A stretch of 64,000 bases of DNA. Origin: Galactobacter valiniphilus (lineage in GTDB: Bacteria; Actinomycetota; Actinomycetes; Actinomycetales; Micrococcaceae). Below, piece by piece: positions 24,135 to 47,966 of the stretch (its first letter is position 1; each line of letters starts with the position of its first letter). Where the stretch lies: positions 62,001 to 126,000 of the forward strand of contig NZ_QQXK01000001.1 in the NCBI RefSeq assembly GCF_003575975.1. The letters run 5' to 3'. The position numbers and the translations under genes were made by a program. Under the pieces are notes generated by a model. It searched no databases and was not told the origin of the DNA. It saw only the letters and a program-made list of their open reading frames with translations.

Positions 24135-26252
24135 TCACCAGTTCTTGTAGGTGATGTCCTCCTTCTCCACGAGCGTGAGGACGTCGTACGTGGCGACGAG
24201 CTCGCCGTTCTGGTTGTTCAGAACGGCGTCCCAGGCGACCTCCCCGTACTCGTCGGTGACGCGCGGGGTGATCTTCTTGGCCGTGAGCGTCACGCGGATG
24301 GAATCACCGGCGGCGACGGGCGTGATGAAGCGCAGGTTCTCCAGGCCGTAGTTGGCCAGCACCGGCCCCGGCGCAGGCTCCACGAAGAGGCCGGCGGCCC
24401 AGGAGACCAGCAGGTAGCCGTGGGCCACGATGCCGGGGAAGAAGGGGTTGGCCTCAGCGGCGTCGGGCTGCGTGTGGGCGTAGAAGGTGTCGCCCGTGGT
24501 GTCGGCGAAGGCCTGGATCTCCTCGCGGGAGACCTGGCGCAGGCCGGAGGCGAAGCCGTCGCCGATGCGCAGCTCGGCGAGGGACTTGCGAAACGGGTGC
24601 ACATTCTCGGGGCTGCCGCCGAACTCGGGGTCGCCGGCGAGGGACTGCTTGGCGCCCGTGTGCCAGACCTGCGTCACGGCGGTGAGCATGTCGGGGCTAC
24701 CCTGCAGGGCGGTGCGGGCCATGTGGTGCTTGACGGCGCGGATGCCGCCGAGCTCCTCGCCGCCGCCGGCGCGGCCGGGGCCGCCGTGGATCAGGTGCGG
24801 CATGGGCGAGCCGTGGCCCGTGGAGGTCTTGGCGTCGTCGCGGTCCAGGACGTGGACGCGGCCGTGGTGGGCCGCGATGCCCTGGGTCAGCGCCACGACC
24901 ACGGCCGGGTCGTGCGAGCAAATGGTGGCCACGAGCGAGCCGCCACCCATCGCGGCAAGGCGCACGGCGTCGTCCACATCGGCGTACTCGATGACGGAGG
25001 TCACCGGGCCGAAGGCCTCGATCTCGTGGACGGCCGGGGCGTTGGGGTTCTCCCACGTGAGCACCACGGGCGACATGTAGGCGCCGGCCTCGGCGGCCTT
25101 CCCCTCCTGGGTGACGGCGTCCTGCGCGGACGGGTCGCCGTAGGCCAGGGCGCCTCCTCCGGCCACGAGGCGGCCCACGGCGTCGCGGACGTCGCGCAGC
25201 TGATCCATGGAGGCGAGCGGGCCCATCGTGGCGCCCTCGGCGCGCGGATCGCCCGTCTTGGTGCGGGAGTCGAAAGTCGCGGCCAGTGCAGCCACGACGG
25301 CGTCGCGGCGCCCGGCGGGGACGAGGACGCGGCGCACGGCGGTGCACTTCTGACCAGCCTTGGCGGTGACCTCGTTGGAAACGGAGCGGATGAAGGCCGT
25401 GAACTCCGGGGTGTCCTCGGTGGCGTCCGGGCCGAGGATCGCGGCGTTGAGCGAGTCGGTCTCGGCCGTGAAGCGCACGCCGCCCTCGGTCACGTTGACG
25501 TGCTTGCCGAGCCCGTGGGCCGTGGCGGCGGAGCCGGTGAAGGCCACCATGTCGCGGTAGTCGAGGTGGTCCAGGATGTCGCGGGCGGAGCCGGAGACGA
25601 GCTGGATGGAGCCGGCGGGCAGGAGGCCGGACTCGACCATGAGGCGCACGCAGGCCTCGGTCAGGTAACCCGTGGGGGTGGCCGGCTTGACGATGGTCGG
25701 CACGCCGGCGATGAAGGCCGGGGCGAATTTCTCGAGCATGCCCCAGACGGGGAAGTTGAAGGCGTTGATCTGCACCGCCACGCCCGGGAGCGCGGTGAAG
25801 ACGTGCGTGCCCTGGAAGGAGCCGTCCTTGGAGAGGACCTCGACCGGGCCCTCCTCGATGACATTGGCGTTCGGGAGCTCGCGGCGACCCTTCGAGGAGA
25901 AGGTGAAGAGCACGCCGATGCCGCCGTCGATGTCAACGAAGCCGTCGCGCTTCGTGGCGCCCGTGGCGAGGTTGAGGCGATCCAGCTCCTCGCGGTGCTC
26001 CTGCAGATACAGCGCGAGCTGCTTCAGGATGAGGGCGCGCTCGTGCAGGCTCAGGGCCTTCAGGCCCGCCTGGCCCACGGTGCGGGCGTGGTTGATCATG
26101 GCCGCGATGTCGAGGCCGGAGGTGGAGGCCTGGGCGATCAGCTCACCCGTGGAGGCGTCGCGGACCTCGGTGCCGGCGGTGCCGTCGGCGGGCGTCCACC
26201 AGGCGTCGAGGGCGTAGCTGGGCACATAGCTGGTGTGGGCGGTGAGGGTCAC
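24135..26252 (-). CDS. paaZ: Bifunctional oxepin-CoA hydrolase/3-oxo-5,6-dehydrosuberyl-CoA semialdehyde dehydrogenase PaaZ
   Basis: A 705-residue fusion that opens the oxepin-CoA ring and oxidises the resulting aldehyde. The N-terminal aldehyde dehydrogenase (residues 1-530) shows Glu264 (FTAETDS) and nucleophile Cys303 (GQKCTAVRR). The C-terminal MaoC-type hydratase (about 550-705) has the Asp/His pair in GDTFYAHTQPDAAEANP ... FPGIVAHGYLL. Both active sites look intact. Transcribed alone, under its own PaaR-type operator, convergent with the GNAT gene and divergent from an SDR gene. Confidence 0.96.
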   Translation of the reverse strand: MTLTAHTSYVPSYALDAWWTPADGTAGTEVRDASTGELIAQASTSGLDIAAMINHARTVGQAGLKALSLHERALILKQLALYLQEHREELDRLNLATGATKRDGFVDIDGGIGVLFTFSSKGRRELPNANVIEEGPVEVLSKDGSFQGTHVFTALPGVAVQINAFNFPVWGMLEKFAPAFIAGVPTIVKPATPTGYLTEACVRLMVESGLLPAGSIQLVSGSARDILDHLDYRDMVAFTGSAATAHGLGKHVNVTEGGVRFTAETDSLNAAILGPDATEDTPEFTAFIRSVSNEVTAKAGQKCTAVRRVLVPAGRRDAVVAALAATFDSRTKTGDPRAEGATMGPLASMDQLRDVRDAVGRLVAGGGALAYGDPSAQDAVTQEGKAAEAGAYMSPVVLTWENPNAPAVHEIEAFGPVTSVIEYADVDDAVRLAAMGGGSLVATICSHDPAVVVALTQGIAAHHGRVHVLDRDDAKTSTGHGSPMPHLIHGGPGRAGGGEELGGIRAVKHHMARTALQGSPDMLTAVTQVWHTGAKQSLAGDPEFGGSPENVHPFRKSLAELRIGDGFASGLRQVSREEIQAFADTTGDTFYAHTQPDAAEANPFFPGIVAHGYLLVSWAAGLFVEPAPGPVLANYGLENLRFITPVAAGDSIRVTLTAKKITPRVTDEYGEVAWDAVLNNQNGELVATYDVLTLVEKEDITYKNW

Positions 26253-27776: not shown

Positions 27777-29477
27777 TCAGCCCTCGCCTGGTGCCGACTC
27801 TCCGGCGGGCTCGGCGGCGGGTTCCGCGACGGGTTCGGGGACGGGTTCCGCGAGCTCCCAGCGCCGCGTCACCCCGAGCTCGGACAGGAAGTCCTCGTCG
27901 TGACTGACCACCACGACGGCGCCTTGGTAGGAGCCCAGCGCGGCGCCGAGCTCCGTGATGGAGTCGAGGTCCAGGTCGTTGGTCGGCTCGTCCAGGATGA
28001 GCAGGCGCGGCGGCGGGTCGGCGGCGAGCACGCGGGCCAGGTCCACGCGGAAGCGCTCGCCTCCCGAGAGCCGGCCCAGCGGCTCCTTGACCCGGTCCCC
28101 CGTCAGGCGCAGGCGCCCGGCCAGCTCGCGGGCGCGGGCCTCGGTGAGGCCGGGGACGGCCGCCACGAGGTTCGCCAACACGCTCTGCGCTTCGTCGAAG
28201 CCGGCGCCGCGGCGCTGCGTCATCACGCCCGCCGGGACGAGGGCACCCGGCGCGATCGCCTCGAGCAGCGTTGACTTCCCCGAGCCGTTCGGCCCGAGCA
28301 GGGCCACCCGCTCGGGGCCGCGGATCTGGAGGCGTGCCCCGAGAGCCAACTCCACGCCGTCGTCCATCAGGACCCGGCCGGGCAGCTCCGGCACCTCGGC
28401 GTCGAGGGCCATGCTTCCGGCCCCCAGGCCCGCACCGGGGAGACGGATGTCGATGCCGGCCACCTCGCGGACGGCCTCGCGGGCCTCGTCGAGGGCCTCG
28501 CGGGCGGCACCGAGCCTGGCCTCGTGCAGCGCCGAGCTCTTGCCCGCCGTGGCCTCGGCCGCGTTCTTGCGGGTGTTGGCGAGGATCTTGGGCATCGACT
28601 CGGCGGCCTTCTTGCCCTGGGCCGCGGTGCGGGCGGAGGCAGTCAGCGCCGCCTGCCTCGCCCGCTGCTCCCGCCCGGCGACCGCCTCGGCGCCGCGTAG
28701 GGTGCGCTCGGCCGCTGCCTTAGCCAGCGCCTTGCGCTCCTCGTAGTCGTCCCAGCCCCCGCCGAAGAGCTCGAGCACCACGCCGTCGGCCCGCCCGGCG
28801 CGGACGCGGCGCGGGCGCAGCTCGGCGATCGCGTCGACAGCCCGCAGCAGCGCCCGGTCGTGGGAGACCACCAGCACCGTGCCCGGCCACGAGCCGAGGG
28901 AGGCGATGAGCGCGTCCCGCGCCGCGGCGTCGAGGTTGTTGGTCGGCTCGTCCAGGATCGTGAAGGCCGGCTCCGCGAGTCGCAGCCCTGCGAGCGCCAC
29001 GGCCATGGCCTCGCCGCCGGACAGCGTGGAGACGGGGCGGTCGAGGATGCCCGGCTCGAGGGCGAGGCGTTGGAGCCCGGCCGCGGCGAGCGCGGCGAGC
29101 GCCTGGTCCTCGGCGTCCCAGTTGTCGCCGATGATCTCCATGAGCTCGGCGGCGCGCTCGGCGCTCGGTTCGCCCGTCGTGAGCTCCGCGAGGGCAACAA
29201 GCACGGCGTCCACACCGAGGAGCCGCGCCACCGTGACCTCGGCCGCGAGCGTGAGCTTCTGCGGCAGTACGGCCACCGGCTCGGGGCGGGAGATGGTGCC
29301 GGAGGCGGCGGTCAGCTCGCCGGAGATGAGGCGCATGAGCACGGATTTGCCGAGCCCGTTGGGCCCGATGACGCCGGTGGTGCCGGCGCCGAACGTGGCG
29401 CTCAGCTGGTCGAAGACCTGGCGGCCGTCGTCGAAGGCGAAGGAGACGGAGTCCAGGACAACGCTGGGGGTCAACAT
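27777..29477 (-). CDS. ABC-F family ATPase
   Basis: A 566-residue soluble protein with two ABC cassettes and no membrane domain, the hallmark of ABC-F ribosome-binding factors. Cassette 1 has Walker A GPNGLGKS, signature LSGGEAMA and Walker B TILDEPTNNLD; cassette 2 has GPNGSGKS, LSGGERFR and LILDEPTNDLD. A long Ala/Lys/Arg-rich linker lies between (about residues 225-320), and the C-terminus ends in EP-rich repeats. Members either rescue stalled ribosomes or confer resistance to ribosome-targeting antibiotics. Linker length and sequence do not allow me to say which. Monocistronic. Confidence 0.9.
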   Translation of the reverse strand: MLTPSVVLDSVSFAFDDGRQVFDQLSATFGAGTTGVIGPNGLGKSVLMRLISGELTAASGTISRPEPVAVLPQKLTLAAEVTVARLLGVDAVLVALAELTTGEPSAERAAELMEIIGDNWDAEDQALAALAAAGLQRLALEPGILDRPVSTLSGGEAMAVALAGLRLAEPAFTILDEPTNNLDAAARDALIASLGSWPGTVLVVSHDRALLRAVDAIAELRPRRVRAGRADGVVLELFGGGWDDYEERKALAKAAAERTLRGAEAVAGREQRARQAALTASARTAAQGKKAAESMPKILANTRKNAAEATAGKSSALHEARLGAAREALDEAREAVREVAGIDIRLPGAGLGAGSMALDAEVPELPGRVLMDDGVELALGARLQIRGPERVALLGPNGSGKSTLLEAIAPGALVPAGVMTQRRGAGFDEAQSVLANLVAAVPGLTEARARELAGRLRLTGDRVKEPLGRLSGGERFRVDLARVLAADPPPRLLILDEPTNDLDLDSITELGAALGSYQGAVVVVSHDEDFLSELGVTRRWELAEPVPEPVAEPAAEPAGESAPGEG

Positions 29478-30660: not shown

Positions 30661-31665
30661 ATGAATAAATCCCGCATCGCCGCCGTCACGGCCTTCCTTC
30701 CCGAGGAACGCCGCACCGCAGCGCAGACGGAGGCCCGGATCCTCGAGAGCAATCCGGGCCTTCACCTGCCCACGGGACTCATCACGCGCATGACCGGCGT
30801 CGAGTCCGTCTACGTCCGCCCGGCGGACTGGCAGGCCTCGGATCTCGCGGTCGCCGCGGCGCGCCAGGCGCTCGAGGCCTCCCCCGGCGGCGTGGATCTC
30901 CTGATCTTCGCGAGCGCGAGCCAGGACCTCATCGAGCCGGCCACGAGCCACATCGTGAATCACAAGCTCGGCCTCGAGGCCCCCGTGTTCGACGTCAAGA
31001 ACGCCTGCAACTCGGTCATCAACGCCATGCAGGTCGGCTCGGCGCTGATCGAGGCCGGCGTGCACCGCCGCATCCTCATCGCCAGCGGCGAGGGACCCAC
31101 CTCGGCCGTGCGCTGGAAGGTCAAGGACAAGGAACAGTTCCTGCGCTCCTTCCCCGGCTACGTCATGGGCGACGGCGGGGCCGCCGTCATCCTCGAGGCC
31201 GCCGAGCCTGGAAGCGACGCGGGCATCCTCGCTTCCTCCTTCGTCTCCGTCTCCCGGCATTGGACCGTTGGCACGCTCCCCGGCGGCGGGACCATGGGCA
31301 AGCAGGACCCCGAGAGCCTCTACTTCGACATGGACGGCGCTGGCCTGCAGCGGGCCTTCCTCGAGCTCGGCCCCGCTCCGGTCGAGGAGCTCCTGAAGCG
31401 CGAGGGCCTGACCACCGAGGACTTCGACCTCGCGGCCATCCACCAGGTGGCCCTCCCCCACGTAGCGCCCGTCCTGGCCCGCCTCGGCGTGGCAAGCGAG
31501 AAGGTCGTCGTGACGGTCGTCGACCACGGCAACCTCGCCTCCGTCACGCTGCCCCTGCAGCTGCAGCTGGCCAAGGAACGCGGCATGATCGGCCCCGGCT
31601 CACTGGTCCTGCTCATCGGTCTGGCCGGCGGCATCAGCCTCGGTCTCATGGTGGTGAGGCTCTGA
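30661..31665 (+). CDS. oleA: OleA-type thiolase (beta-ketoacyl-ACP synthase III superfamily)
   Basis: A 334-residue thiolase-superfamily enzyme expected to join two long-chain fatty acyl-CoAs head to head, giving a beta-keto acid. Nucleophile Cys116 (VKNACNSV), His261 (AIHQVALPH) and Asn291 (VDHGNLASV) form the KASIII/OleA triad. Downstream OleC- and OleD-type genes favour OleA over FabH. The stop overlaps the next start as TGATG. ATG 30661 has only a distant AGGAG, so initiation may be weak or leaderless. It heads the 30.7-36.2 kb operon. Confidence 0.88.
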   Translation: MNKSRIAAVTAFLPEERRTAAQTEARILESNPGLHLPTGLITRMTGVESVYVRPADWQASDLAVAAARQALEASPGGVDLLIFASASQDLIEPATSHIVNHKLGLEAPVFDVKNACNSVINAMQVGSALIEAGVHRRILIASGEGPTSAVRWKVKDKEQFLRSFPGYVMGDGGAAVILEAAEPGSDAGILASSFVSVSRHWTVGTLPGGGTMGKQDPESLYFDMDGAGLQRAFLELGPAPVEELLKREGLTTEDFDLAAIHQVALPHVAPVLARLGVASEKVVVTVVDHGNLASVTLPLQLQLAKERGMIGPGSLVLLIGLAGGISLGLMVVRL

Positions 31666-33650
31666 TGAGCGCGCGGCTCGGCATCGCCGTCCCCGTCCTC
31701 AACGAGCGCGCCTGGATCCTCCCCACGCTCGAGGCCCTGCGGGACCAGGAGGACCCGGACTTCGACGTCGTCTTCGTGGACAACAACTCCACCGACGGCT
31801 CGGCCGCGTTCATCGAGGAGACGGCCGCGGCCTGGGGCATGACCCGCTGGCGCGTCATCCACGAGGCCCAGAAGGGCACCGGCGCCGCGGCGGACACGGG
31901 CCTGCGCGCCTGCATCGAAGGCGGCGCCACGATCCTCGGCCGCACCGACGCCGACTGCCTGCCGCGCCAGGACTGGACCGCAGCACTGCGGCGCTGCCTC
32001 GCGCCCGTCGAGGAGGGCGGACTGGGCCTGGGACTCGTGGGCGGCAGCCTGCTCCCGCGCCGCGACGAGGGGCTCAGCAAGGCAACCATCGGCGCGCTCA
32101 TGGGCGCCGTGGCCGTCGCCGAGGCCTTCGGACAGGTCCGGCCCGGCAACCGCAGCACCCAGTATCAAGGTCCGTACATGATGGCCGCCGGCTGCAACGT
32201 GGGCATCACCTCCGAGCTCTACCTCGCCGCCGGTGGCTTCGCCCGCACGCGCATCGAGGACCTCCACGAGGACCGCGCCCTCGTCAACGCGGTCCGCCGC
32301 CTCACGCCGAACTACGCGCGGCGGCGCGACGTGGTGGTCTTCGGCTCCAGCCGCCGCGTCAAGGCCTGGGGGCTGGCTAAGACCCTGCGCTGGTACAAGG
32401 ACCACTCTTACCGACCCAACCACGTGGACATCCGCGACCCCGAATCCGACCGCGCCATCAACTTGGCCGAGCGCCGCGAGGACCAGGGCGGCCTAGAGCT
32501 GGCCCAGCGCCGCGACCGCGCCGTCATGAAGGCCGCCCACCCCGTCGCCTTCCCGCTCCTGGACGCCCTCCCCGGCAGGTTCACGCGCCTGCCCAAGGTC
32601 GGCACGTTTGTGAAGGACCCCGCGCTGCTGCGTGAGGTCTTCCTCGACCAGACACGCTTTGCCAAGACCGGCCCCGGCTCGCCCTCCGATCTGTGGACCC
32701 CCATCCTCGGCCCCGATGTCCTCATCAACATGGACGGCCCTGAGCACGCCGCGCTCCGCCGCAAGATCGGCCCGCTCTTCACCCCCGCTTCGGTCTCCGC
32801 CATCGTCGAGGACTCACTCACCGCGACGACGGCCGTGCTGCGCGAACGCCTCGCCTCCGGCGAGCGCGTCGACCTCGTGCAGCACGCCAAGCACGCGGCC
32901 AGCGTCGTCATCGCCCGGCTCGTCGGCGTGAGCACCGACGTCGTGGGGGATGACTTCTTCCGGCAGGCCGCCCGCGTCACGGGATACGTGTCCCTCACGC
33001 GCCGCGGCCTCACCGAGCGCCAGCAGGCGGACGCCCGCGCGGTCATGGACTCGCTGCGGGCCACCGCCGCCGATGCGTATCGCGCGGACGGAGACACCGT
33101 CCCCGCCAGGCTGCGCCGCCTCGGTCTGAGCGAGGAGGACGCCACGGGGGTCGTGGCCGTGCTCATCGTGACGGGCACCGAAACGCTCGTCTCGTTCCTG
33201 CCCCGCATGTCCGCCCTGCTCATCGACTCCGGGTGGCTGCCGCGGCTCGCCGACGACCAGGCCTCGGCCGACGCCGCCATCAACGAGACGCTGCGGGTCA
33301 CCGCGCCCACGCCCGTCACCCTGCGCCGCGTCGCCGCCGACACGTCCCTCGGCGGCAAGCGGTTGCGCGCGGGCGAGAGGGTCGTCCTCGGAACGTACTG
33401 GGCCACCTCGCCCTTCGCGCCGTTCAACCCCTCCGCGGCGGCGGGGGACCTCAAGCGCCTCTGGTTCGGAGCCGGCGCCCACTTCTGCCTCGGGGCGCCG
33501 CTGGCCATGGCCCAGGCGCACCTGCTCTTGGGTGCCTTGGCCGCCGTCCCCGAGCTGCGGATCGTCGAACGCGAGGCGGCCCGCGGCGTGCTCATCCCCG
33601 CCTACGCCCGCCTGATCGTGCAGCGCCGGGGCGGTGAGGACCGTGGCTGA
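31665..33650 (+). CDS. Family-2 glycosyltransferase fused to a cytochrome P450
   Basis: A single 661-residue chain with two enzymes. Residues 1-280 are a GT2 glycosyltransferase: start GIAVPVLNERAWI, nucleotide-binding FVDNNSTDGS, metal motif DAD (95-97) in GRTDADCLP, and acceptor-side block EDLHEDRAL. Residues 290-661 are a complete class-I-like P450 with I-helix TGTET (Glu506), ExxR in NETLRVTAP, and heme loop FGAGAHFCLGAP (Cys608). No stop or frameshift separates them. There is no membrane anchor. It overlaps oleA by one base and the AMP-ligase gene by 8-17 bases. This domain pairing is not one I know as an established architecture. The role is inferred as oxidation and glycosylation of the OleA product. 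Confidence 0.88.
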   Translation: MSARLGIAVPVLNERAWILPTLEALRDQEDPDFDVVFVDNNSTDGSAAFIEETAAAWGMTRWRVIHEAQKGTGAAADTGLRACIEGGATILGRTDADCLPRQDWTAALRRCLAPVEEGGLGLGLVGGSLLPRRDEGLSKATIGALMGAVAVAEAFGQVRPGNRSTQYQGPYMMAAGCNVGITSELYLAAGGFARTRIEDLHEDRALVNAVRRLTPNYARRRDVVVFGSSRRVKAWGLAKTLRWYKDHSYRPNHVDIRDPESDRAINLAERREDQGGLELAQRRDRAVMKAAHPVAFPLLDALPGRFTRLPKVGTFVKDPALLREVFLDQTRFAKTGPGSPSDLWTPILGPDVLINMDGPEHAALRRKIGPLFTPASVSAIVEDSLTATTAVLRERLASGERVDLVQHAKHAASVVIARLVGVSTDVVGDDFFRQAARVTGYVSLTRRGLTERQQADARAVMDSLRATAADAYRADGDTVPARLRRLGLSEEDATGVVAVLIVTGTETLVSFLPRMSALLIDSGWLPRLADDQASADAAINETLRVTAPTPVTLRRVAADTSLGGKRLRAGERVVLGTYWATSPFAPFNPSAAAGDLKRLWFGAGAHFCLGAPLAMAQAHLLLGALAAVPELRIVEREAARGVLIPAYARLIVQRRGGEDRG

Positions 33651-35331
33651 CCTCGTCGCGTCCGTCCTCGCTGCTGCAGACGCGGCGGCCGCGGGAACGG
33701 TCGCCATCCGCTACGGCCGCCGCTCCCTGGGCTATCGCGAGCTCGCCGGGCGGGTGCGTGCGGGGGCTGAGAGCCTCAGGCGCCTCGGGCTCGCGCCGGG
33801 CGACCGCGTGCTCTTCACGGTGCGCCCCGGCCCCGACGCCGTGGTCCTCGCCCTGTCCATCGTGCACGCGGGCGGAACCGTGGTCTTCGCGGATCCCGGT
33901 GCCGGCGCCGCCCTCTTTGCCGCCCGCGCCTCGCTTGCCGCCCCGCGCTGGGTCGCCGCCGAGTCGCTCCTGCACCTTGCCTCGACGCGGCCGCTGCGCC
34001 GCCTGGCCCGCTCCCGCGGCCTCGACCTGCCGCCCTACGCGAGCATCGTCCCCGAGGCCAGGCACCTGCGCGCCGGCCCGTGGCTGCCAGGGACGCCCCG
34101 GGGCGCCGTCGGGCTCCGGGCCCTCTTCGCCGGGAAGGCGGGCCGGGGCACCCGGCCCGGCCACGCGGCGTCGGGCCGTTCTTCACAGCACGACGACGCC
34201 CGGCCGGCTTCCGGCGCGGGCGCCTGGACGGCCGGAGGCCGGGAGAGCGACGAGGCGCTCGTCGTCTTCACGTCCGGAACCACGGGAACCCCCAAGGCCG
34301 TGGTGCACACGCGCGGCTCGCTCGGCAATGGCCTGGGCGATTTCGCGGCGGGCATCGGCCTCGCGGCCGGGCAGAACGTGCTCACCGACCAGCTCATGGT
34401 CGGCGTGCCGGCGCTCATCGCCGGCGCCACGTGGACCTTCCCGCCGCACGGAACCCAGCCCGGCGCGCCCAGCGAGGCCTACCTCGACCTCCTCGACGGC
34501 GCCGACGTCCTCTTCACTCCGCCCGCCACGATGGACGCGCTCCTGAAGCTCCTCGCGCTCAGCCCCCGGCCGGGGACCGCCCGAGTCCGGACCATCGCCC
34601 TCGGCGGCGCGCCGGTGCTGCGCCCGCTCGTGGAGCGCATCCACGAGCGCTTCCCGAACGCCGCGATCCGCACCATCTACGGCATGACCGAGGTGCTCCC
34701 CGTGGCGATCGGCGACGGCCTGGCCAAGCTCGCCACCGCCCCGGCTTCCGACGGCGGCGACGAGGCCGGCACCGTGGTCCCGAGCGTCAGGGCCCGGGTC
34801 GAGGACGGCGAGTTGATCCTCTCCGGCCCCGGGCTGGCCCGTGGCTACCTCGCGGATCTGCCAGGGAACCCGCTCACCGAGCACCGCACCGGCGACCTCG
34901 TGAGGCTGGACGGCAACCGCCTCACGCTGCTCGGCCGCAAGAAGGACATGTTCATCCGCGGCACGCAGAACGTGTACCCGGGGCTCTACGAGCCGCTCGT
35001 CGCCGGGCTGCCCGGGGTCTCCGACGCCGTGCTGACGGGCGTGCCGGACGGGATCGGCGACGACCGGCTGGTCCTCGTGGTCATCCCCGAGGACGCCCCG
35101 CCGGTCGGCTTCGACGCGGGCCACCCGCTCACGGCCACCGTGGCCGCCGCCCTGCCGGGGCTCATGGACGCCGGCGCGCTTCCCGATCTGGTCCTCGCCA
35201 CGGACGCCTGGCCGCGCGCCGGGCGGCATCAGAAGCTCGACCGCCGGGCGTTGGCCGCCCAGGTGGGTGGCTGGGCGGCGCAGCACCCGGGCGCCCTCCC
35301 CGGGGACCCCGCCTCCGAAGGCGCGCCGTGA
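33634..35331 (+). CDS. oleC: OleC-type AMP-dependent ligase (beta-lactone synthetase family)
   Basis: A 565-residue adenylate-forming enzyme. The phosphate loop VFTSGTTGTPKAVVH is at about 209-224, followed by YGMTEVLPVA, the hinge block GDLVRLDGNRLTLLGRKKDM and the A10-type lysine region (AGRHQKLDRR). OleC enzymes adenylate a beta-hydroxy acid and close it to a beta-lactone. An Ala/Gly/Arg-rich insert of about 60 residues (about 150-205) before the loop contains two short-repeat copies. GTG 33634 and GTG 33643 are both possible starts; the latter gives a GTGGCTGA overlap with the preceding gene. It ends in GTGA overlapping the next start. Confidence 0.86.
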   Translation: MRTVADLVASVLAAADAAAAGTVAIRYGRRSLGYRELAGRVRAGAESLRRLGLAPGDRVLFTVRPGPDAVVLALSIVHAGGTVVFADPGAGAALFAARASLAAPRWVAAESLLHLASTRPLRRLARSRGLDLPPYASIVPEARHLRAGPWLPGTPRGAVGLRALFAGKAGRGTRPGHAASGRSSQHDDARPASGAGAWTAGGRESDEALVVFTSGTTGTPKAVVHTRGSLGNGLGDFAAGIGLAAGQNVLTDQLMVGVPALIAGATWTFPPHGTQPGAPSEAYLDLLDGADVLFTPPATMDALLKLLALSPRPGTARVRTIALGGAPVLRPLVERIHERFPNAAIRTIYGMTEVLPVAIGDGLAKLATAPASDGGDEAGTVVPSVRARVEDGELILSGPGLARGYLADLPGNPLTEHRTGDLVRLDGNRLTLLGRKKDMFIRGTQNVYPGLYEPLVAGLPGVSDAVLTGVPDGIGDDRLVLVVIPEDAPPVGFDAGHPLTATVAAALPGLMDAGALPDLVLATDAWPRAGRHQKLDRRALAAQVGGWAAQHPGALPGDPASEGAP

Positions 35332-36248
35332 CGGTCCTCGTCACGGGGGCCGGCGGCTTCGTGGGCGGCGCGGTGGCCCGGCGCCTCGCCGAGTCGGGCC
35401 ACGAGGTCATCGCCGCCGTGCGCCGCCCAGGTTCCTTCGACCACCCGGGCGTGCGGACCGTGACGTGGGAGCTGCCCGCTCCCCCACCCGAGGCCCTGCG
35501 CGAAACCCGGCCGGACGCCGTCGTGCACGCCGCCGCCCGCGTCGACGACACCGCCCCGTGGGCACCGGCCTTCCGCGCCAATGTGCTCGGCACGCGCGCG
35601 GTGCGCTCGGCGTTCCCCGGCGCGCGGCTCGTGCTGATCTCCACCTCGAGCGTGTACGACGGCGCGCGCGGCGTGATCGACGCCAGCGAGGAGGACGCGC
35701 AGCCCGGCGGCCAGCGCGGCAGCTACGCGCGCACCAAGTTCCTCGCCGAGGTCGAGCTGAGCGGCACCGACGCGATCATCCTGCGCCCGCACGCCGTCTA
35801 CGGCCCGGGCGATCGCACCCTGCTCCCCCGCGTCCAGGTGGCGGTGCGCGGCGGGCGCCTGCTCCTGCCGGGCGGCGGGGCCGCCCTCCACGCGCTCACG
35901 CACATCAGCAACCTGCTCGACGCCGTGGGGTTGGCTTTGGTGCCCGGCGCGCCGGCGGGCACGTACAACGTCACGGACGCCGCGCCCGTCCCGGTGGGCG
36001 AGGCGATCGGCGAGTTCCTGACGCGGCGGGGCGTGGAGCACCGGATCGTGCCGGTGCCGCTGGGCCTGGCGCTCGGCGCGGGCGGTGCCGCGGAGGTTCT
36101 CTCCTTCTTCACGCGGCGCACGCCGCGGCTCACGCGGTACGCCGCGGCGCAGATCGGGCGGCAGCACACGTACAACCTGGACGCCGCCCGCGAGGGGCTC
36201 GGCTACCGGCCGGCGCCCACGAGCCTCGAGGGGGCCGAGGGCTGGTAG
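35328..36248 (+). CDS. oleD: OleD-type NAD(P)-dependent epimerase/dehydratase (3-oxoacid reductase)
   Basis: A 306-residue extended SDR with GAGGFVG at the N-terminus, Asp/Arg region near HAAARVDDTAP, Ser in ISTSSVYDG, and the catalytic pair Tyr133/Lys137 (SYARTKF). OleD reduces the beta-keto acid made by OleA to a beta-hydroxy acid for OleC. GTG 35328 overlaps the oleC stop (GTGA). The stop TAG is directly followed by the stop of the convergent P450 gene, with no bases between them. Confidence 0.86.
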   Translation: MTVLVTGAGGFVGGAVARRLAESGHEVIAAVRRPGSFDHPGVRTVTWELPAPPPEALRETRPDAVVHAAARVDDTAPWAPAFRANVLGTRAVRSAFPGARLVLISTSSVYDGARGVIDASEEDAQPGGQRGSYARTKFLAEVELSGTDAIILRPHAVYGPGDRTLLPRVQVAVRGGRLLLPGGGAALHALTHISNLLDAVGLALVPGAPAGTYNVTDAAPVPVGEAIGEFLTRRGVEHRIVPVPLGLALGAGGAAEVLSFFTRRTPRLTRYAAAQIGRQHTYNLDAAREGLGYRPAPTSLEGAEGW

Positions 36249-37502
36249 TCAGCGCGCCGGATGTTTGCGCACCACGAGGCTTTCGTAGGCGGGGATGAGC
36301 ACCTTGCGGCCGTAGCGCCTGCGCACAATGCTCAGCGGCCGTCCGTCGCCCGTGAGCAGCGTCAGGAAGTGGTCGAGCTCCGCGCGGGCCAGCGGGCCGC
36401 CGAGGCAAAGGTGCCGCCCCGCCCCGAACCAGAGCTGTCGGTTGTGGGGCTGGTAGGCCCGATCGATCGCGAACGCCCCGGCCACATTGTTGGCGGTCCA
36501 CGTCAGCACCATAACGCGTTCACCCGCCCTGAGCGTGCGGCCGGCGATCTCCAGGTCCTTGACCACCGAGCGCCCGATGAGCGGTGCCGGAGAGGTGACA
36601 CGGAGGGCCTCGCGCACGGTGTCCTCGCGGCGCTCGGGCCGCTCCAGCAGCCGCACTTGCTCGCCGGAGTCGATGAGGAGCGCCATCATGCGAGCCATCG
36701 CCGAGGCGGCCGTCTCGGTACCGGCGACCATGAGCAGGGTGCACAGGCCCTTCGTTTCCAGCGGGGACAGGCCGAGCCCGCGGCACCTGCCGACGACCGT
36801 GTCCCCACCCGCCGTGTCAAACGCGCCGTCGATGTGCCCGGTGAGCCGCTCCACGATCCCGCGGGCCGCGGCGATCTTGTCCGGCGGGAGCACGGTGTCG
36901 GACGTGGTCCCGAGGGCGATCGAGGCCAGTTCCTCGCCCGTCGCGAAGATCTCGCGATAGGCGTCGTCGCCCCGCGATGCGTCCACCGGTGTTCCGAGCA
37001 GGGTCACGACCATGCGCCCCACGAGGATGCGGCTCAGATCGGCGAGGTCGAGCTCGCCGCCCGCCTCGAGGTGGGCCCGCGCCTCGCTCAGGCGCGAGCC
37101 CCAGGCGGACTCGACAAACGCGTCGCTGGTGCGTGCGGTGAAGAGGTCCTTGCTGCGGGTGCGCAGGTCGTGATGCCCGGGACCGTCGAACAGCTCGTTG
37201 ACCCAGTCGCCCAGGACCTGTGCCCACAGGTGTCCCACCCCGCCCTCGCTGAGCAGGCTGAGATGGGTGGGATCGTTAAGCAGCGCGCGGGCCACGAGCG
37301 GATCCGAGGTGATCCACCCCAGCCGGGGCAGCTTCATGAGCGGGCGGGCGTACTGGCCAAGCCAGTTCAGCACGGGCAGGGCCGGGCGAGCCGCCCGCAT
37401 CAGGCGGTGTTCGTGCGCGGCCGCACCCTGGCCTCGCCCATCGGCGAAGAGCCGCAAGCGGCGCTCGACAGGGGCGGCAGACAGCTCTTCGCGCACTGGC
37501 AT
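36249..37502 (-). CDS. Cytochrome P450
   Basis: A 417-residue soluble bacterial P450 with I-helix motif VAGTETAAS, ExxR in REALRVTSP and heme loop FGAGRHLCLGG (Cys366). It is convergent with oleD with zero spacing, so it is transcribed from a separate promoter upstream of 37502. Its position suggests a second tailoring step on the ole product, such as hydroxylation or decarboxylation of an acyl chain, but this is inference. It is more similar in layout to CYP152-unlike, electron-partner-dependent P450s; no ferredoxin gene is adjacent. The 120 bases upstream of the start show no distinct promoter. Confidence 0.88.
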   Translation of the reverse strand: MPVREELSAAPVERRLRLFADGRGQGAAAHEHRLMRAARPALPVLNWLGQYARPLMKLPRLGWITSDPLVARALLNDPTHLSLLSEGGVGHLWAQVLGDWVNELFDGPGHHDLRTRSKDLFTARTSDAFVESAWGSRLSEARAHLEAGGELDLADLSRILVGRMVVTLLGTPVDASRGDDAYREIFATGEELASIALGTTSDTVLPPDKIAAARGIVERLTGHIDGAFDTAGGDTVVGRCRGLGLSPLETKGLCTLLMVAGTETAASAMARMMALLIDSGEQVRLLERPERREDTVREALRVTSPAPLIGRSVVKDLEIAGRTLRAGERVMVLTWTANNVAGAFAIDRAYQPHNRQLWFGAGRHLCLGGPLARAELDHFLTLLTGDGRPLSIVRRRYGRKVLIPAYESLVVRKHPAR

Positions 37503-37623: not shown

Positions 37624-38871
37624 TCAGTCGACGGCCAGGACCGTGAGGTCTCCGTCCAGGGTGGTCACGGCGATGAGGTCGGCGCCCACCGCGGGCACTC
37701 CCTCGGTCGCGGGGAGCGTCAGGAGCTGCACGGTGCCGTTGGGGGCGATGCTCAGGACGTGCGTGCCCGGCCTGCTGCTCCCGTCCACGTGAACGGTCAC
37801 ACGGCCGTCACCGGCCCCGGCGCCCGAGGCGTCCATCGAGCTCGGGTCGATGGACGCGACCTCCCGCACCGTCTTGGCGTGGAGGTCCACCGCCGCGACC
37901 TTGTCCCCGGTGGCGATGAGCGCCTGCTGGTCGGAGGCGGCCAGGAGCCGCAGGGGCGCAAGTTCCTCGCCCGAGCCCCGCGCGGACACGGTCAACACCG
38001 CCTCCTGCGTCGCCGGCATGGCGTCGTCGACGACGGCGCGCATCAGCTTGATCTGTCCGTCTTCCCTGGTCTCCCACAGGATTGTGTCGTCGGTGCCCGC
38101 CCACACCTCCGAGGCCCCGGGCGCCGGGATGAGGCTCTGCTGGGTGCCGTCGAGCGCGCTCGTCACGACGTGCCGGCCCTCGACCGACCCGATCGTGAAG
38201 GCCACGTGGTCCCGGGCCAGCACGAGCCGCGTGCTGGAGAAGGGTTCCTCGCCCACATCGTCCGAGCCAAAGACCTTGGTCACCGCCGAGCCATCACGCT
38301 TGGCCTTGTAGAGGGTCCAGGGCGAGGGCCCGGCCTCGGCCGAGGGAGATTCCGCCCAGACCACCCAGTCCTCGTTCTCGACGGCGTCGAGGACCTGCCC
38401 CGGTTCTGCGCCGTCCACCCCCTTCGACGTCGCGAGCGCCCGCTCACCGAGCACCAGCGAGGGGAACTCCTTGAAGGTGCCCGTACCGCCGTCGAAGGAA
38501 CCGTCGGGCTCCTGGGAGCTGAGGACCTCTTCGCCCACGAAGGCCCACGGAATCGGGGTGCCTCCCTTCACCACCGGGTCCACGCTGCCCTGATCGGCCG
38601 GCGTGGACTGGACGGGCTTCGCCGCCTTGCCCCACGCCACGGCGGTGCCGTCGCCCCAGGCGAGCCGGGGCTGGGACGTCCCGCTCGCCGTCGTGCTGGG
38701 GGCCGGGCTGGAGGCGGCAGTGGAGGCCCCGGAGGGGCTCGTCGAGTGGCTCGAGGCCGCCGTGCCCACGTCGATCCCCGTGCTCGGGGCGGGAGCCGTG
38801 GCGTCCGTGCAGGCGCTCAGTGCGAACGCCAGGGGAAGGGACAGGGCCAGCCGCGGGCGGAATGCGCGCAT
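37624..38871 (-). CDS. Secreted lipoprotein, beta-propeller-like, function unknown
   Basis: A 415-residue lipoprotein with a signal peptide (MRAFRPRLALSLPLAFALSA, lipobox LSAC) followed by a Ser/Thr-rich linker (about 30-70). The rest is repeats reminiscent of WD/TolB-like propellers (WTLYKAKRDGSAVTKVF; HVVTSALDGTQQSL; THVLSIAPNGTVQLL). No catalytic motif is evident. It is probably anchored outside the membrane as a sensor or binding protein. ATG 38871 has AGGAG at 8 bases; a frame extension of 20 residues upstream lacks a good start. Transcribed in the same direction as the downstream P450. Confidence 0.7.
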   Translation of the reverse strand: MRAFRPRLALSLPLAFALSACTDATAPAPSTGIDVGTAASSHSTSPSGASTAASSPAPSTTASGTSQPRLAWGDGTAVAWGKAAKPVQSTPADQGSVDPVVKGGTPIPWAFVGEEVLSSQEPDGSFDGGTGTFKEFPSLVLGERALATSKGVDGAEPGQVLDAVENEDWVVWAESPSAEAGPSPWTLYKAKRDGSAVTKVFGSDDVGEEPFSSTRLVLARDHVAFTIGSVEGRHVVTSALDGTQQSLIPAPGASEVWAGTDDTILWETREDGQIKLMRAVVDDAMPATQEAVLTVSARGSGEELAPLRLLAASDQQALIATGDKVAAVDLHAKTVREVASIDPSSMDASGAGAGDGRVTVHVDGSSRPGTHVLSIAPNGTVQLLTLPATEGVPAVGADLIAVTTLDGDLTVLAVD

Positions 38872-38899
38872 CGAGCGACTCCTGGGGCAGAAACGACAA

Positions 38900-38927
38900 G
38901 TGGCGGACCGGTTCCTCGATCCGCCAC
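38900..38927 (-). terminator. Stem-loop after paaH
   Basis: GTGGCGGA (38900-38907) and TCCGCCAC (38920-38927) form an 8-bp stem, 14 bases beyond the paaH stop on the minus strand. It ends the paaJ-ech-paaH operon. Confidence 0.55.
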
Positions 38928-38940
38928 CCACGCTAGGGCC

Positions 38941-39789
38941 TCAGCTCCAGTCGTAGAAGCCCTTGCCGCTCTTCTGTCCCAGCTCGCCGCGGGCCACCAT
39001 GTCGCGCATGAGCTGCGGCGGCGCAAAACGCTCGCCGAGCTCGGAGGCGAGGTACTCGGCGATGTCCAGGCGCACGTCCAGGCCCACGATGTCGGTGGTC
39101 TTGAGCGGGCCCGAGGCGTGGCCGTAGCCGAGCACCATGGCGTTGTCGATGTCCTCGGCGCTCGCCACGCCCGACTCGACCATGCGGATCGCCTCGAGCG
39201 CCAGGGCCACGCCCAGGCGGGAGGAGGCGAAGCCCGGGGCGTCGTTGACGACCACGGCGGTCTTGCCGAGGCCGGCCACCCAGCCGCGGGCGGCGTCCAC
39301 CAGCTCGGGGCGCGTGGCCTGGCCCGCCACGACCTCGATCAGCTTGGAGGCCGGGACCGGGTTGAAGAAGTGCAGCCCAAGGAAGGAGGCGGGGCGCTCG
39401 AGCTCGGCGGCGAGGCCGTCGATGGAGAGCGAGGAGGTGTTGGAGGCCAGCACGGCGCCCTCGGCGAGGTGCGACTCGGCCTCGCGCAGCGTGGAGACCT
39501 TGAGGTCCCACAGCTCCGGCACGGCCTCGACGGCGAGCTCCACCGTGGAGAGCGCGTCCTTGCCCGTGGAGACGGTCAGGCGTTCGAGGATCTCCTCGCG
39601 CGTGCCGCCCAGGCCGCGGGCCAAGGACTTGTCCACGGAAACGCCGATGCGCTCGGCGGCGGCTGCCGCGGCGTCGATGTTCGCCTCGATCACCACCACC
39701 TCGGCCCCGGAGACCAGGAACGCGTGCGCGATGCCCGCTCCCATGCGTCCGCCGCCGATGACGCCCACGCGGGCTGGAAGCTGGCTCAT
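38941..39789 (-). CDS. paaH: 3-hydroxyacyl-CoA dehydrogenase PaaH
   Basis: A 282-residue NAD-dependent 3-hydroxyacyl-CoA dehydrogenase oxidising 3-hydroxyadipyl-CoA in the lower phenylacetate pathway. The Rossmann motif VGVIGGGRMGAGIAH, the SNTSSLSID block, His and Asn of LHFFNPVPASKL, and NDAPGFASSRL are all visible. It is third in the operon after paaJ and an enoyl-CoA hydratase; its ATG overlaps the upstream stop as TGATG. A butyryl-CoA-type (FadB2/Hbd) role cannot be excluded from sequence alone, but position favours PaaH. Confidence 0.9.
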   Translation of the reverse strand: MSQLPARVGVIGGGRMGAGIAHAFLVSGAEVVVIEANIDAAAAAAERIGVSVDKSLARGLGGTREEILERLTVSTGKDALSTVELAVEAVPELWDLKVSTLREAESHLAEGAVLASNTSSLSIDGLAAELERPASFLGLHFFNPVPASKLIEVVAGQATRPELVDAARGWVAGLGKTAVVVNDAPGFASSRLGVALALEAIRMVESGVASAEDIDNAMVLGYGHASGPLKTTDIVGLDVRLDIAEYLASELGERFAPPQLMRDMVARGELGQKSGKGFYDWS

Positions 39790-40613
39790 CACTTCTTCTT
39801 TCGGTCGAGGAACGCCTGCATGCGCTCGAACTTGGCTTCTGACTCGAACAGCACGGCCTGGGCCAGCGTGTCGATGACGGGGTGCGCCTCGCGGGGCGAG
39901 TGGAACACGGCCTTGGTCAGGCGCACGGCCAGCGCGTCCTGCGCGCCGATGCGGTCGGCCAGGGCGTGGGCCGCCGCGAGCAGCTCGCTCGGCTCCACGA
40001 GCTCGGTGATGAGCCCGGCCGCGAGGCACTGCTCGCCCGTCAGGATCTTCCCGGCAAAGAGGATCTCCTTGGCCAGCGGCTCACCGACCAGCTCACGCAG
40101 GCGCCACGTGGCGCCGGCCCCGGCGGTGATGCCGAGGTTGGTCTCCGGCTGACCCATGCGCAGCTGCGGAGTGCCGAGGCGGAAGTCCGCGGCGTAGGAG
40201 AGCTCCGCGCCGCCGCCGAGGGCAAAGCCGTCGAGCGCCGCGATCATCGGCATGGGCAGGCGCGCCAGGCGGTCGAAGATCGTGGAGTTGATGCCGGCCA
40301 GGGCCTCGGCCCGGCGGCGCTCCTTGAGCTGGGCGATGTCGGCGCCGGAGGCGAAGAGCCCCTTGGTGCCGGCCTCGGGGTCCGACGGCGTGCCCGTCAG
40401 GATGAGGATCTTGGGCTCGCGCTCCAGGTGGTCGGCGAGCGCGTGCAGCTCGTCCACCATGGTCTGGTCGATCGCATTGCGCACCTCGGGGCGGTGCAGG
40501 GCCGCGACCACGCGGTCCTCGCCCTCGGTGACGCGCAGGGCAACAAAGTGCTCGGCCCAGGGAGCCGGGGCGAGGCTGGAAGCCGAGCCGGCGCCGTCGT
40601 GCGTTTCAGCCAC
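39789..40613 (-). CDS. Enoyl-CoA hydratase/isomerase (PaaF or PaaG)
   Basis: A 274-residue crotonase-fold protein. The oxyanion-hole block GLFASGADIAQLKE and the second block ALDGFALGGGAELSYAADFRL are normal; the second block ends with TNLGITAGAGATWRL. Crotonase catalytic glutamates are expected near positions 140-160; Glu in QPETNLGI is present, the other position is Ala/Gly, leaving hydratase versus isomerase unclear. Only one such gene is in the window, whereas the complete pathway normally has a PaaF hydratase and a PaaG isomerase. GTG start, two bases after the upstream stop. Confidence 0.82.
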   Translation of the reverse strand: MAETHDGAGSASSLAPAPWAEHFVALRVTEGEDRVVAALHRPEVRNAIDQTMVDELHALADHLEREPKILILTGTPSDPEAGTKGLFASGADIAQLKERRRAEALAGINSTIFDRLARLPMPMIAALDGFALGGGAELSYAADFRLGTPQLRMGQPETNLGITAGAGATWRLRELVGEPLAKEILFAGKILTGEQCLAAGLITELVEPSELLAAAHALADRIGAQDALAVRLTKAVFHSPREAHPVIDTLAQAVLFESEAKFERMQAFLDRKKK

Positions 40614-40615
40614 GC

Positions 40616-41842
40616 TCAGACCCCCTCAATCAGGATCGCGGTGCCCTGGCCCACGCCGACGCACATGGTGGCGAGGCCGAGCTTGCGGCCCTCGCCGCTG
40701 AGCTCGCGCTCCATGCGACCCAGCAGCGTGATGACGATGCGGGAGCCGGAGGATCCCAGCGGGTGGCCAAGGGAGATGGCGCCGCCGTCGCGGTTGACGA
40801 TCTCGGGGTCGATCCCGAGCTCGCGCATCGAGGCGAGGGACTGCGAGGCGAAGGCCTCGTTGAGCTCCACGGCGCCGAGCTCGGAGACGTCAACGCCGTT
40901 GCGCTCGAGGACCTTGCGGGTGGCGGGAACCGGGCCCATGCCCATGATCTCCTGGGCCAGGCCGGCGGAGGCGCCGCCGATCACGCGGGCGCGCGGCGTC
41001 AGCCCGTAGCGCTTCACGGCCTCGGGGGAGGCGACGATAATGGCGGAGGCTCCGTCGTTCAGGGTGGAGGAGTTGCCCGCGGTCACCACGGAACCGCCGG
41101 CCACCACCGGGCGCAGCTTGGCGAGCACCTCGGCCGTGGTGCCGGGGCGCGGGCCCTCGTCGGTGTCGACGATGGTCTCGGCGCCCTTGCGGCCCTTGAC
41201 CGTCACGGGGACGATCTCGTCGGCGAATCGGCCGGCCTCGATCGCGGCGATGGCGCGCTCGTGGGAGAGCACGGCGAAGGCGTCGGCGTCCTCGCGGCTC
41301 ACGTTGAACTGGCGGGCGACCTCCTCGGCCGTCTCCGGCATGGAGAAGGTGGCCTTGCCGTCGCGGGAGAGCTCACCGCTGAGGAAGTTCGGGTTGGGGA
41401 AGCGCCAGCCGATGGAGGTGTCGTAGACGGCGCCGGGCTTGGCGAAGGCCGTGGCGGGCTTCTCCATGACCCAGGGGGCGCGGGACATGGACTCCACGCC
41501 GCCGGCCACGACGATGTCGGCCTCGCCTGCCTTGATCATGTTGGCGGCCATGGTGATGGCGGACATGCCGGAGGCGCAGAGGCGGTTCACGGTGATGCCG
41601 GGGACCGTGTCGGGGAAGCCGGCCAGGAGCCAGCCCATGCGGGCCACGTTGCGGTTCTCCTCGCCGGCACCGTTGGCGTTGCCGAAGATGACCTCGTCCA
41701 CGGCCTCGGCCGGGACGCCGGCGCGCTCCACGGCGGCCTTGATGGTCAGGGCGGCCAGGTCGTCCGGGCGCACCGAACTCAGGGATCCGCCGTAGCGGCC
41801 CACGGGCGTGCGCGCACCACCGATGAGGAAAGCCTCGCTCAT
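40616..41842 (-). CDS. paaJ: Acetyl-CoA acyltransferase, PaaJ-type thiolase
   Basis: A 408-residue degradative thiolase. Nucleophile Cys in NRLCASGMS, His in GGAISLGHPLGSSG and second Cys in MCVGVGQG are all visible. In the pathway it cleaves 3-oxo-5,6-dehydrosuberyl-CoA and 3-oxoadipyl-CoA to acetyl-CoA products. It is the first gene of paaJ-ech-paaH with its own PaaR-type operator 42 bases upstream. The family also includes PcaF of the beta-ketoadipate pathway; context points to PaaJ. Confidence 0.92.
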   Translation of the reverse strand: MSEAFLIGGARTPVGRYGGSLSSVRPDDLAALTIKAAVERAGVPAEAVDEVIFGNANGAGEENRNVARMGWLLAGFPDTVPGITVNRLCASGMSAITMAANMIKAGEADIVVAGGVESMSRAPWVMEKPATAFAKPGAVYDTSIGWRFPNPNFLSGELSRDGKATFSMPETAEEVARQFNVSREDADAFAVLSHERAIAAIEAGRFADEIVPVTVKGRKGAETIVDTDEGPRPGTTAEVLAKLRPVVAGGSVVTAGNSSTLNDGASAIIVASPEAVKRYGLTPRARVIGGASAGLAQEIMGMGPVPATRKVLERNGVDVSELGAVELNEAFASQSLASMRELGIDPEIVNRDGGAISLGHPLGSSGSRIVITLLGRMERELSGEGRKLGLATMCVGVGQGTAILIEGV

Positions 41843-46891: not shown

Positions 46892-47001
46892 TTCCACGGT
46901 GCGGCGCCTTCCAGACACGCACTGCGCCACGTCTTCTACCGCGCCGGGTGGGCGTTGGTGGCCTGAGTAGCGCTCTGCGCATCAGCACTAGACTCATCCC
47001 C

Positions 47002-47952: not shown

Positions 47953-47966
47953 GGGACGGCGCGGGC

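Follow-up and report, generated by a model that had tools for sequence, protein, structure and literature searches.

Ole enzymes are known for making hydrocarbons and beta-lactones. An operon of Galactobacter valiniphilus (Micrococcaceae) raises the question of what they make when OleB is missing and a glycosyltransferase (GT) and cytochromes P450 have been added. The operon occupies positions 30,661 to 37,502 of a 64,000-nucleotide stretch, here called the window, which covers positions 62,001 to 126,000 of contig NZ_QQXK01000001.1 (assembly GCF_003575975.1). An initial annotation had read its OleA-, OleC- and OleD-type genes, a GT2–P450 fusion gene and a second P450 gene as one OleB-less pathway whose product is not a plain olefin. 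We find that the cassette is a real conserved pathway with a rare fused enzyme, that it is more widespread than the single published example, and that its outline was already described in 2020. The operon probably makes an oxidised glycolipid of some kind. In our preferred reading, the genes form a pathway of their own towards an oxidised, glycosylated lipid, most likely ending in a beta-lactone; we hold it tentatively, at close to an even chance. Loci and genomes are numbered L and G, respectively.

Organization of the operon and its enzymes

The window encodes the following features, the two P450s being called P450a and P450b.

30661..31665, + strand: OleA-type condensing enzyme, 334 amino acids (aa); Pfam ACP_syn_III; catalytic C116, H261 and N291, OleA-type glutamate E92
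31665..33650, + strand: GT2–P450 fusion protein, 661 aa; Pfam GT2 and P450; model mean pLDDT 83.9
31665..32405, + strand: GT2 domain (GT-A fold) of the fusion, residues ~1-247; TDADC and HEDRA motifs
32406..32477, + strand: low-confidence interdomain linker, residues ~248-271, from the AlphaFold model
32478..33650, + strand: cytochrome P450a domain; I-helix GTET, ExxR, heme-ligand Cys
33634..35331, + strand: OleC-type adenylate-forming enzyme, unfused to OleB; GTG start, alternative GTG at 33643; Pfam AMP-binding
35328..36248, + strand: OleD-type short-chain reductase, 306 aa; GTG start; Pfam Epimerase
36249..37502, - strand: second cytochrome P450 (P450b); Pfam P450; 36% identical to P450a

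The claim that the first four genes are chained by start/stop overlaps was borne out when the junctions were read from the DNA. The OleA stop codon (TGA, 31663-31665) and the ATG of the fusion gene (31665) have one base in common, and the fusion gene ends (33650) within the OleC open reading frame (ORF) whether OleC starts at 33634 or 33643. OleC and OleD are joined by a GTGA overlap, with the OleD start at 35328. The OleD stop codon (TAG) ends at 36248 and that of the convergent P450b begins at 36249, confirming the annotated order, with GT and P450 in one protein and the second P450 converging at zero distance.

The Ole active-site residues, annotated as intact in the window, are also kept among homologues. 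OleA E92, C116, H261 and N291 are present in 86 of 86 aligned rows, among them six OleAs from Nocardia-type variant clusters (described below); all residue counts given here include a few duplicate records and exclude L047. The window OleA motif (EPATS...DVKNACN) has the pattern EP..[AS]...D..NAC around the catalytic glutamate of OleABCD-pathway OleAs; the full motif is unmatched in 12 of 87 rows, yet the glutamate is aligned there. A survey of oleABCD clusters used an OleA pattern ending in NACL (PMC7158056), which would miss window-type OleAs, as these read NACN. NACN likewise occurs in four OleABCD OleAs (L064, L065, L153, L154). OleC E353 and D421 are kept in 92 of 92 rows and K534 in 89 of them, and the OleD Ser/Tyr/Lys residues in 69 of 69.

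Trees of OleA and OleC, each of 75 rows and made by a quick method with one type of support, placed both enzymes apart from their olefin-pathway counterparts, a comparison that the initial annotation had proposed. For the OleA tree we hand-picked 56 of 87 window-type rows and added the full set of 18 from the other OleA query together with one FabH, giving 48 cassette, 3 OleC-less, 13 Nocardia-type and 10 OleABCD rows besides FabH. Cassette rows grouped with the OleC-less ones (support 94, not starred), away from the OleABCD and Nocardia-type OleAs, and the branch to the FabH outgroup was very long. In the OleC tree, ten OleBC halves formed one clade (100) apart from the cassette OleCs, among which 15 Nocardia-type OleCs were nested. 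An identity of OleA and OleC as FabH and FadD enzymes was considered and rejected: the OleA glutamate is kept, the tree sets the protein far apart from the FabH of the same genome, and the gene set is conserved. The only other match to the window OleA in the genome is 31% identical and lies on a different contig.

The GT2 and P450 parts also retain their functional residues. The two DxD aspartates of the GT are kept in 93 of 93 and 92 of 93 rows, the heme-ligand cysteine in all P450a (81/81) and P450b (49/49) rows, and the I-helix acid–alcohol pair likewise (Glu–Thr in 81/81 P450a rows, Glu/Asp–Thr in 49/49 P450b rows). P450-derived GT activators of the TIGR04515 type have lost the heme cysteine. 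A role of either P450 as such a heme-less activator was rejected, since the cysteine is conserved and the two P450s score 58 and 72 bits against TIGR04515, below its cut-off of 343. In the AlphaFold model of the fusion (mean predicted local distance difference test, pLDDT, 83.9; predicted template modelling score, pTM, 0.61) the linker at residues 248-271 is weak. A fold search with the fused model gave 1916 matches; the 50 listed are all P450s, and the P450 part resembles EryK, CalO2 and BioI most closely. Searched on its own, the GT domain resembled general GT-A enzymes (TMq 0.51-0.63 among the 50 listed), a level of likeness that does not name donor or acceptor.

The fusion itself is rare. 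By tblastn, which gave all core-gene counts reported here, GT and P450a are fused in five of 78 rows that have both (the window, L047, L067, L052 and L094) and separate in 73. The five rows come from four genomes, L047 and L067 being one genome of the same genus as the window. Recurrence in L047/L067, L052 and L094 led us to reject a sequencing or assembly artefact. The GT stop and P450a start overlap by 4 bases in 11 of 15 unfused pairs inspected, so fusion needs little change. All four fused genomes fall into one OleA clade (SH-aLRT 98), whose neighbours are mostly Microbacteriaceae, with weak deeper support, although L067 (same contig as that of G003), of the window's genus, bears an Arthrobacter label. 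One fusion event followed by transfer between families would be the simplest account. No publication on GT–P450 fusions was found by phrase search, which is weak evidence since few phrasings were tried.

Some single loci deviate around these genes. In G002, of the window's genus, the contig begins inside P450a, so the fusion state there cannot be judged. This P450a (L050:2-958) is 73% identical to the window's while the adjacent OleC and OleD are 90% identical, and the gene after OleD follows without an intervening P450b; P450a may have changed faster or been replaced. At L049:9571-10294 (G043) the GT reads as two pieces in different frames, through a frameshift or a sequencing error.

Conservation of the cassette and its separation from the olefin operon

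The initial annotation had reported OleB as absent from the window and suggested a search of the remaining genome. Pfam PF00561 has 14 matches in the source genome (G000; 3.4 Mb, 99 contigs, completeness 100) and none on the window's contig. The 332-aa OleB half of the OleBC fusion in L065, used as query, had no match at E<=0.001 in this genome, and an OleB encoded elsewhere in it was rejected. The same search across 24 genomes (four OleABCD controls from the family coded f15; G001, in which no cassette was seen; three OleC-less relatives; and 16 cassette genomes) was two-peaked. Ten genomes, among them clear positive controls, matched at E<1e-80 with 55-100% identity, and the next best match anywhere was 7e-13. 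Among the 16 cassette genomes, where the locus of G258 was not fetched and that of G002 is cut at the contig start, six have an OleB orthologue (G351, G288, G043, G386, G359 and G275), in each case within an OleA-OleB-OleC-OleD run (L147-L152) apart from the cassette. The remaining ten had no OleB match better than 9e-6. OleB was also found in none of 80 named loci reached through the GT, with flanks of up to 10 kb. Six genomes hold both at different places, so the cassette is a system distinct from the olefin operon. Together with the position of OleC outside the OleBC clade, this upholds the reading of one OleB-less pathway whose product is probably not a plain olefin.

Two surveys answered the suggestion that related genomes be examined for conservation. 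Among 396 genomes of the order, the window OleA matched 23 at E<=1e-40. Six of the 23 belong to family f15 (33-36% identity), and the loci fetched from f15 (L064, L065, L153, L154) are OleABCD loci. From the other 17 genomes, 16 loci were inspected (all except that of G258): GT, P450a and OleC occur together in 13 and are joined by OleD in 10, OleD not being seen in L049, L053 and L063. The remaining three (L048, L055 and L056) have OleA and P450a without the cassette GT or OleC. The second survey, a scan of named genomes, gave 249 relatives of the GT, the best 80 of which became loci. OleA, GT, P450a, OleC and OleD stand in this order in 56 of the 80; another 14 belong to a P450a-less Nocardia/Segniliparus type, and L068, L117 and L134 are cut or partial. 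Among the 56 ordered loci, P450b is convergent downstream in 16 and divergent upstream in 12, one has a weak same-strand P450, and 27 are without. Genera represented include Agrococcus, Salinibacterium, Cellulosimicrobium, Oerskovia, Arthrobacter, Paenarthrobacter, Nocardia, Lentzea and Saccharothrix. A few duplicates remain unmerged in these counts (L047/L067 and L063/L076 are one record each, L059/L103 probably one). Because 13 of 16 OleA-reached and 56 of 80 GT-reached loci keep the cassette, the gene set is not a chance association. Evenly drawn samples yielded the GT at E<=1e-45 in 17 of 394 genomes from the class, in 29 of 118 from the genus of G742 and in 38 of 150 from the family of G557; these counts concern the GT itself, gene order having been inspected in a minority of the genomes.

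Neighbouring genes were surveyed in 91 loci, minus those without a called core gene, by scanning one representative per homology group with Pfam. These neighbour counts come from our own gene caller and miss L048, for which it gave nothing, and L082, L105, L106 and L143, for which it gave no core gene. Within five called genes of a core gene, an IlvD-like protein was found in 23 loci, an acetolactate-synthase-like one in 19 and its small subunit in 18. Such IlvD- and acetolactate-synthase-like neighbours stand close to the cassette in about 20 loci, including L049, L053, L095 and L101, and branched-chain precursors might matter. Adenylate kinase and SecY lie near the cassette in nine loci, seven of them named Arthrobacter or Paenarthrobacter.

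In the window, the cassette is set among genes resembling phenylacetate-type and beta-oxidation-type catabolism, which encode an aldehyde dehydrogenase–MaoC fusion, a hydroxyacyl-CoA dehydrogenase, a thiolase, an enoyl-CoA hydratase and an AMP-binding protein (24135-26252, - strand; 38941-41842, - strand; 46948-49187, + strand). Upstream lies an ABC-F protein (27777-29477, - strand) nearest the ribosomal-protection type, unassigned at 261.6 bits against a cut-off of 380. A 435-aa gene at 37624-38931 (- strand) has no Pfam match; its homologues are about 51-53% (G003) and 48% (G002) identical, most neighbouring genes being 88-99% identical. GC content at third codon positions (GC3) is 0.885-0.964 in the cassette and 0.932 (sd 0.034) in 28 other, hand-chosen window ORFs, so that a foreign composition was rejected. 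Total GC of OleC (0.766) and OleD (0.772) is slightly more than 2 sd above the mean of these 28 ORFs (0.711, sd 0.025).

Variant loci and known systems

The initial annotation knew of no described pathway with this gene set. This is contradicted by Robinson et al. 2020, mBio (PMC7064751), who described OleA, a glycosyltransferase, OleC, a P450 and OleD in Actinoplanes atraurantiacus, in a genome without oleB, and who proposed, as an unproven product, a hydroxylated, glycosylated beta-lactone. The window has the same gene set and likewise no oleB in the genome, but its GT and P450 are fused, the P450 stands before OleC, and a second, convergent P450 is present. Loci L162 and L163 have the order OleA-GT-OleC-P450-OleD, in which that paper lists the genes, with partial P450 matches of 39-41%. 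The OleABCD olefin pathway of Actinobacteria (oleA-oleBC-oleD) shares with the window OleA, OleC and OleD homologues with intact residues, whereas the window lacks OleB, has an unfused OleC from a separate clade, and adds the GT and P450.

Clusters of the Nocardia type share with the window GT2 (55-59% identity), OleC (41-46%; nested among cassette OleCs) and P450b (49-52%). In contrast to the window, they have no P450a, and their OleA is distant (26-30% identical to the window's) and accompanied in 13 loci by a degenerate OleA-like partner in a pair-like arrangement (profile E 1e-11 to 5e-21). Near OleC, 11 Nocardia loci carry a member of a single homology group whose representative is PapA-like. 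Nocardia-type loci, including L104, L108, L116 and L121, often have an extra small gene of about 85 aa and usually P450b. It appears that the condensing enzyme was swapped while the GT and OleC, in most cases with P450b, stayed in place. Nocardiolactone clusters have a heterodimeric OleA pair. The Nocardia-type clusters are possibly of the nocardiolactone kind. In Nocardia, 36 nocardiolactone clusters have been reported (PMC7413640). Lipstatin LstA/LstB likewise form a heterodimeric OleA pair (PMC7064751), while the window encodes a single OleA.

The OleC-less loci L048, L055 and L056 instead encode a TIGR02304 'F390 synthetase-related' protein, at 353.7, 289.3 and 283.2 bits, respectively, above the curated cut-off of 251.9. 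L055 and L056 also encode a GT21-type glycosyltransferase (matching the HpnI model below cut-off in L055) and an EryCIII/GT28-like one, and L048 instead a protein with ATP-grasp and GNAT domains. Because the two glycosyltransferases beside OleA and P450a in L055 and L056 belong to different families than the cassette GT, the association with glycosylation is seen again with different enzymes. This recurrence of an adenylating and a conjugating enzyme with other parts supports lipid conjugation and is neutral as to the beta-lactone step. In G736 (L158/L159) and G637 (L160/L161) the pathway is split over two genome sites, one with GT-P450a-OleD and P450b and one with OleA-GT-OleC, each with its own GT.

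Possible products of the pathway

Condensation by OleA is established for other OleA enzymes. In the pathway that we infer, sugar site and ring type included, OleA would join two acyl-CoAs head to head and OleD would reduce the keto group to give a 2-alkyl-3-hydroxy acid. P450a, together with P450b where present, may hydroxylate the chain, and the GT2 domain may place a sugar on one hydroxyl; fused, the two could couple hydroxylation to glycosylation. OleC would adenylate the carboxyl and most likely close a beta-lactone, which would not be decarboxylated because OleB is missing. Of the two endings considered, a beta-lactone is fairly clearly favoured over an ester.

Several observations weigh against this pathway. 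The window OleA scores 125 bits against the FabH-type structure 4dfe in the PDB and 95.5 bits against 3row, which we take to be the OleA of X. campestris. OleC and OleD match Ole-type NCBIfam models but are far from reaching the equivalog cut-offs (71 against 900 bits for OleC, 133 against 580 for OleD), and both names are therefore given by kind, not by equivalence. Of the 56 ordered loci, 27 gave no P450b, and a further seven of the 80 loci gave no OleD; these 80 were chosen by their GT and so are no proof that a GT is always present. No OleC was found in the 20-kb stretches of L048, L055 and L056, the only parts of these genomes searched for it, and such relatives with another adenylating enzyme imply that a beta-lactone is not essential to OleA–P450a clusters. 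In addition, although the OleA from Actinoplanes showed activity towards a p-nitrophenyl ester, the protein recovered was unreactive with the acyl-CoAs tested (PMC7064751).

An ester ending would make the product a macrocyclic glycolipid. If GT2 glycosylated the 3-hydroxyl of the 2-alkyl-3-hydroxy acid, beta-lactone closure would not be possible. OleC could then adenylate the carboxyl and pass it to a hydroxyl on the sugar of a second molecule; the product would be a macrodilactone of the glucolipsin, cycloviracin or fattiviracin kind, to which the P450s add hydroxyls. Glucolipsin (also glucolypsin) consists of two glucoses and 2-methyl-3-hydroxy iso acids, closed via glucose C6' and the carboxyl, whereas fattiviracins and cycloviracins are made with trihydroxy acids (PMC4365757). 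Glucolipsin A and cycloviracin B1 have beta-glycosidic bonds exclusively (PMC13047676). The branched acid and beta-glucoside of glucolipsin fit the logic of OleA, OleD and GT, and beta-glycosidic bonds are what an inverting enzyme such as a GT2 should form. The compounds are made by members of related groups: Nocardia vaccinii and a Streptomyces yield glucolypsin, and Kibdelosporangium yields cycloviracin (PMC4365757), while arthrobacilins, counted among lactone glucolipids (PMC8171317), come from Arthrobacter strains (PMC7564310). The cassette GT is found in named Arthrobacter, Paenarthrobacter, Nocardia, Lentzea and Saccharothrix, and both the TIGR02304 enzymes of the OleC-less loci and the PapA-like-group genes near Nocardia OleCs would suit an ester. 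However, the C2 branch that OleA would introduce is missing from cycloviracins in the structures given (PMC4365757), no separate esterification enzyme was seen in the window operon, and published reasoning reads OleC without OleB as a beta-lactone enzyme (PMC7064751). We therefore regard this ending as unlikely for the window, if the strongest of the alternatives. Slightly less likely still is that the cassette family as a whole is the route to actinobacterial macrodilactone glycolipids (glucolipsin, cycloviracin, fattiviracin, perhaps arthrobacilin). The match is no more than suggestive; judged by title, none of the publications found on these compounds is about biosynthetic genes for them, though some are genome reports.

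Nocardiolactone is undecorated, and OleA, OleD and OleC might likewise make a plain beta-lactone while the GT and P450s serve another, neighbouring lipid. Nocardia with oleACD and no oleB are reported, second-hand, to make nocardiolactone, a dialkyl beta-lactone (PMC7064751, PMC7413640), and GT and OleC occur without P450a in 14 of the 80 loci, all Nocardia or Segniliparus. The position of GT and P450a between OleA and OleC in 56 of the 80, and the frequent 4-base overlap of unfused GT–P450a pairs, speak against such a division, which we consider quite improbable. P450s elsewhere decarboxylate fatty acids, and with OleA, OleC and OleD types all present, a P450 or another decarboxylase could in principle replace OleB to yield an olefin. 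As OleABCD is already a separate operon in six of the 16 cassette genomes and the P450s keep the usual I-helix acid–alcohol pair, we give this very little credence.

An oxidised, glycosylated lipid, most likely a beta-lactone, is the reading that we carry forward. The six genomes that hold both the cassette and a complete OleABCD operon make the two branches separable by deletion, and the fused GT–P450 allows the coupling of hydroxylation to glycosylation to be measured within one protein. Should the macrodilactone route prove true instead, an OleC homologue would have turned into a ligase that forms esters, linking a 2-alkyl-3-glycosyloxy acid to a hydroxyl on a sugar rather than forming the beta-lactone ring. 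A conserved oxidising and glycosylating branch of the Ole enzymes would extend the lipids of actinobacteria by a class that has been little explored and whose members might act as enzyme inhibitors or surfactants.

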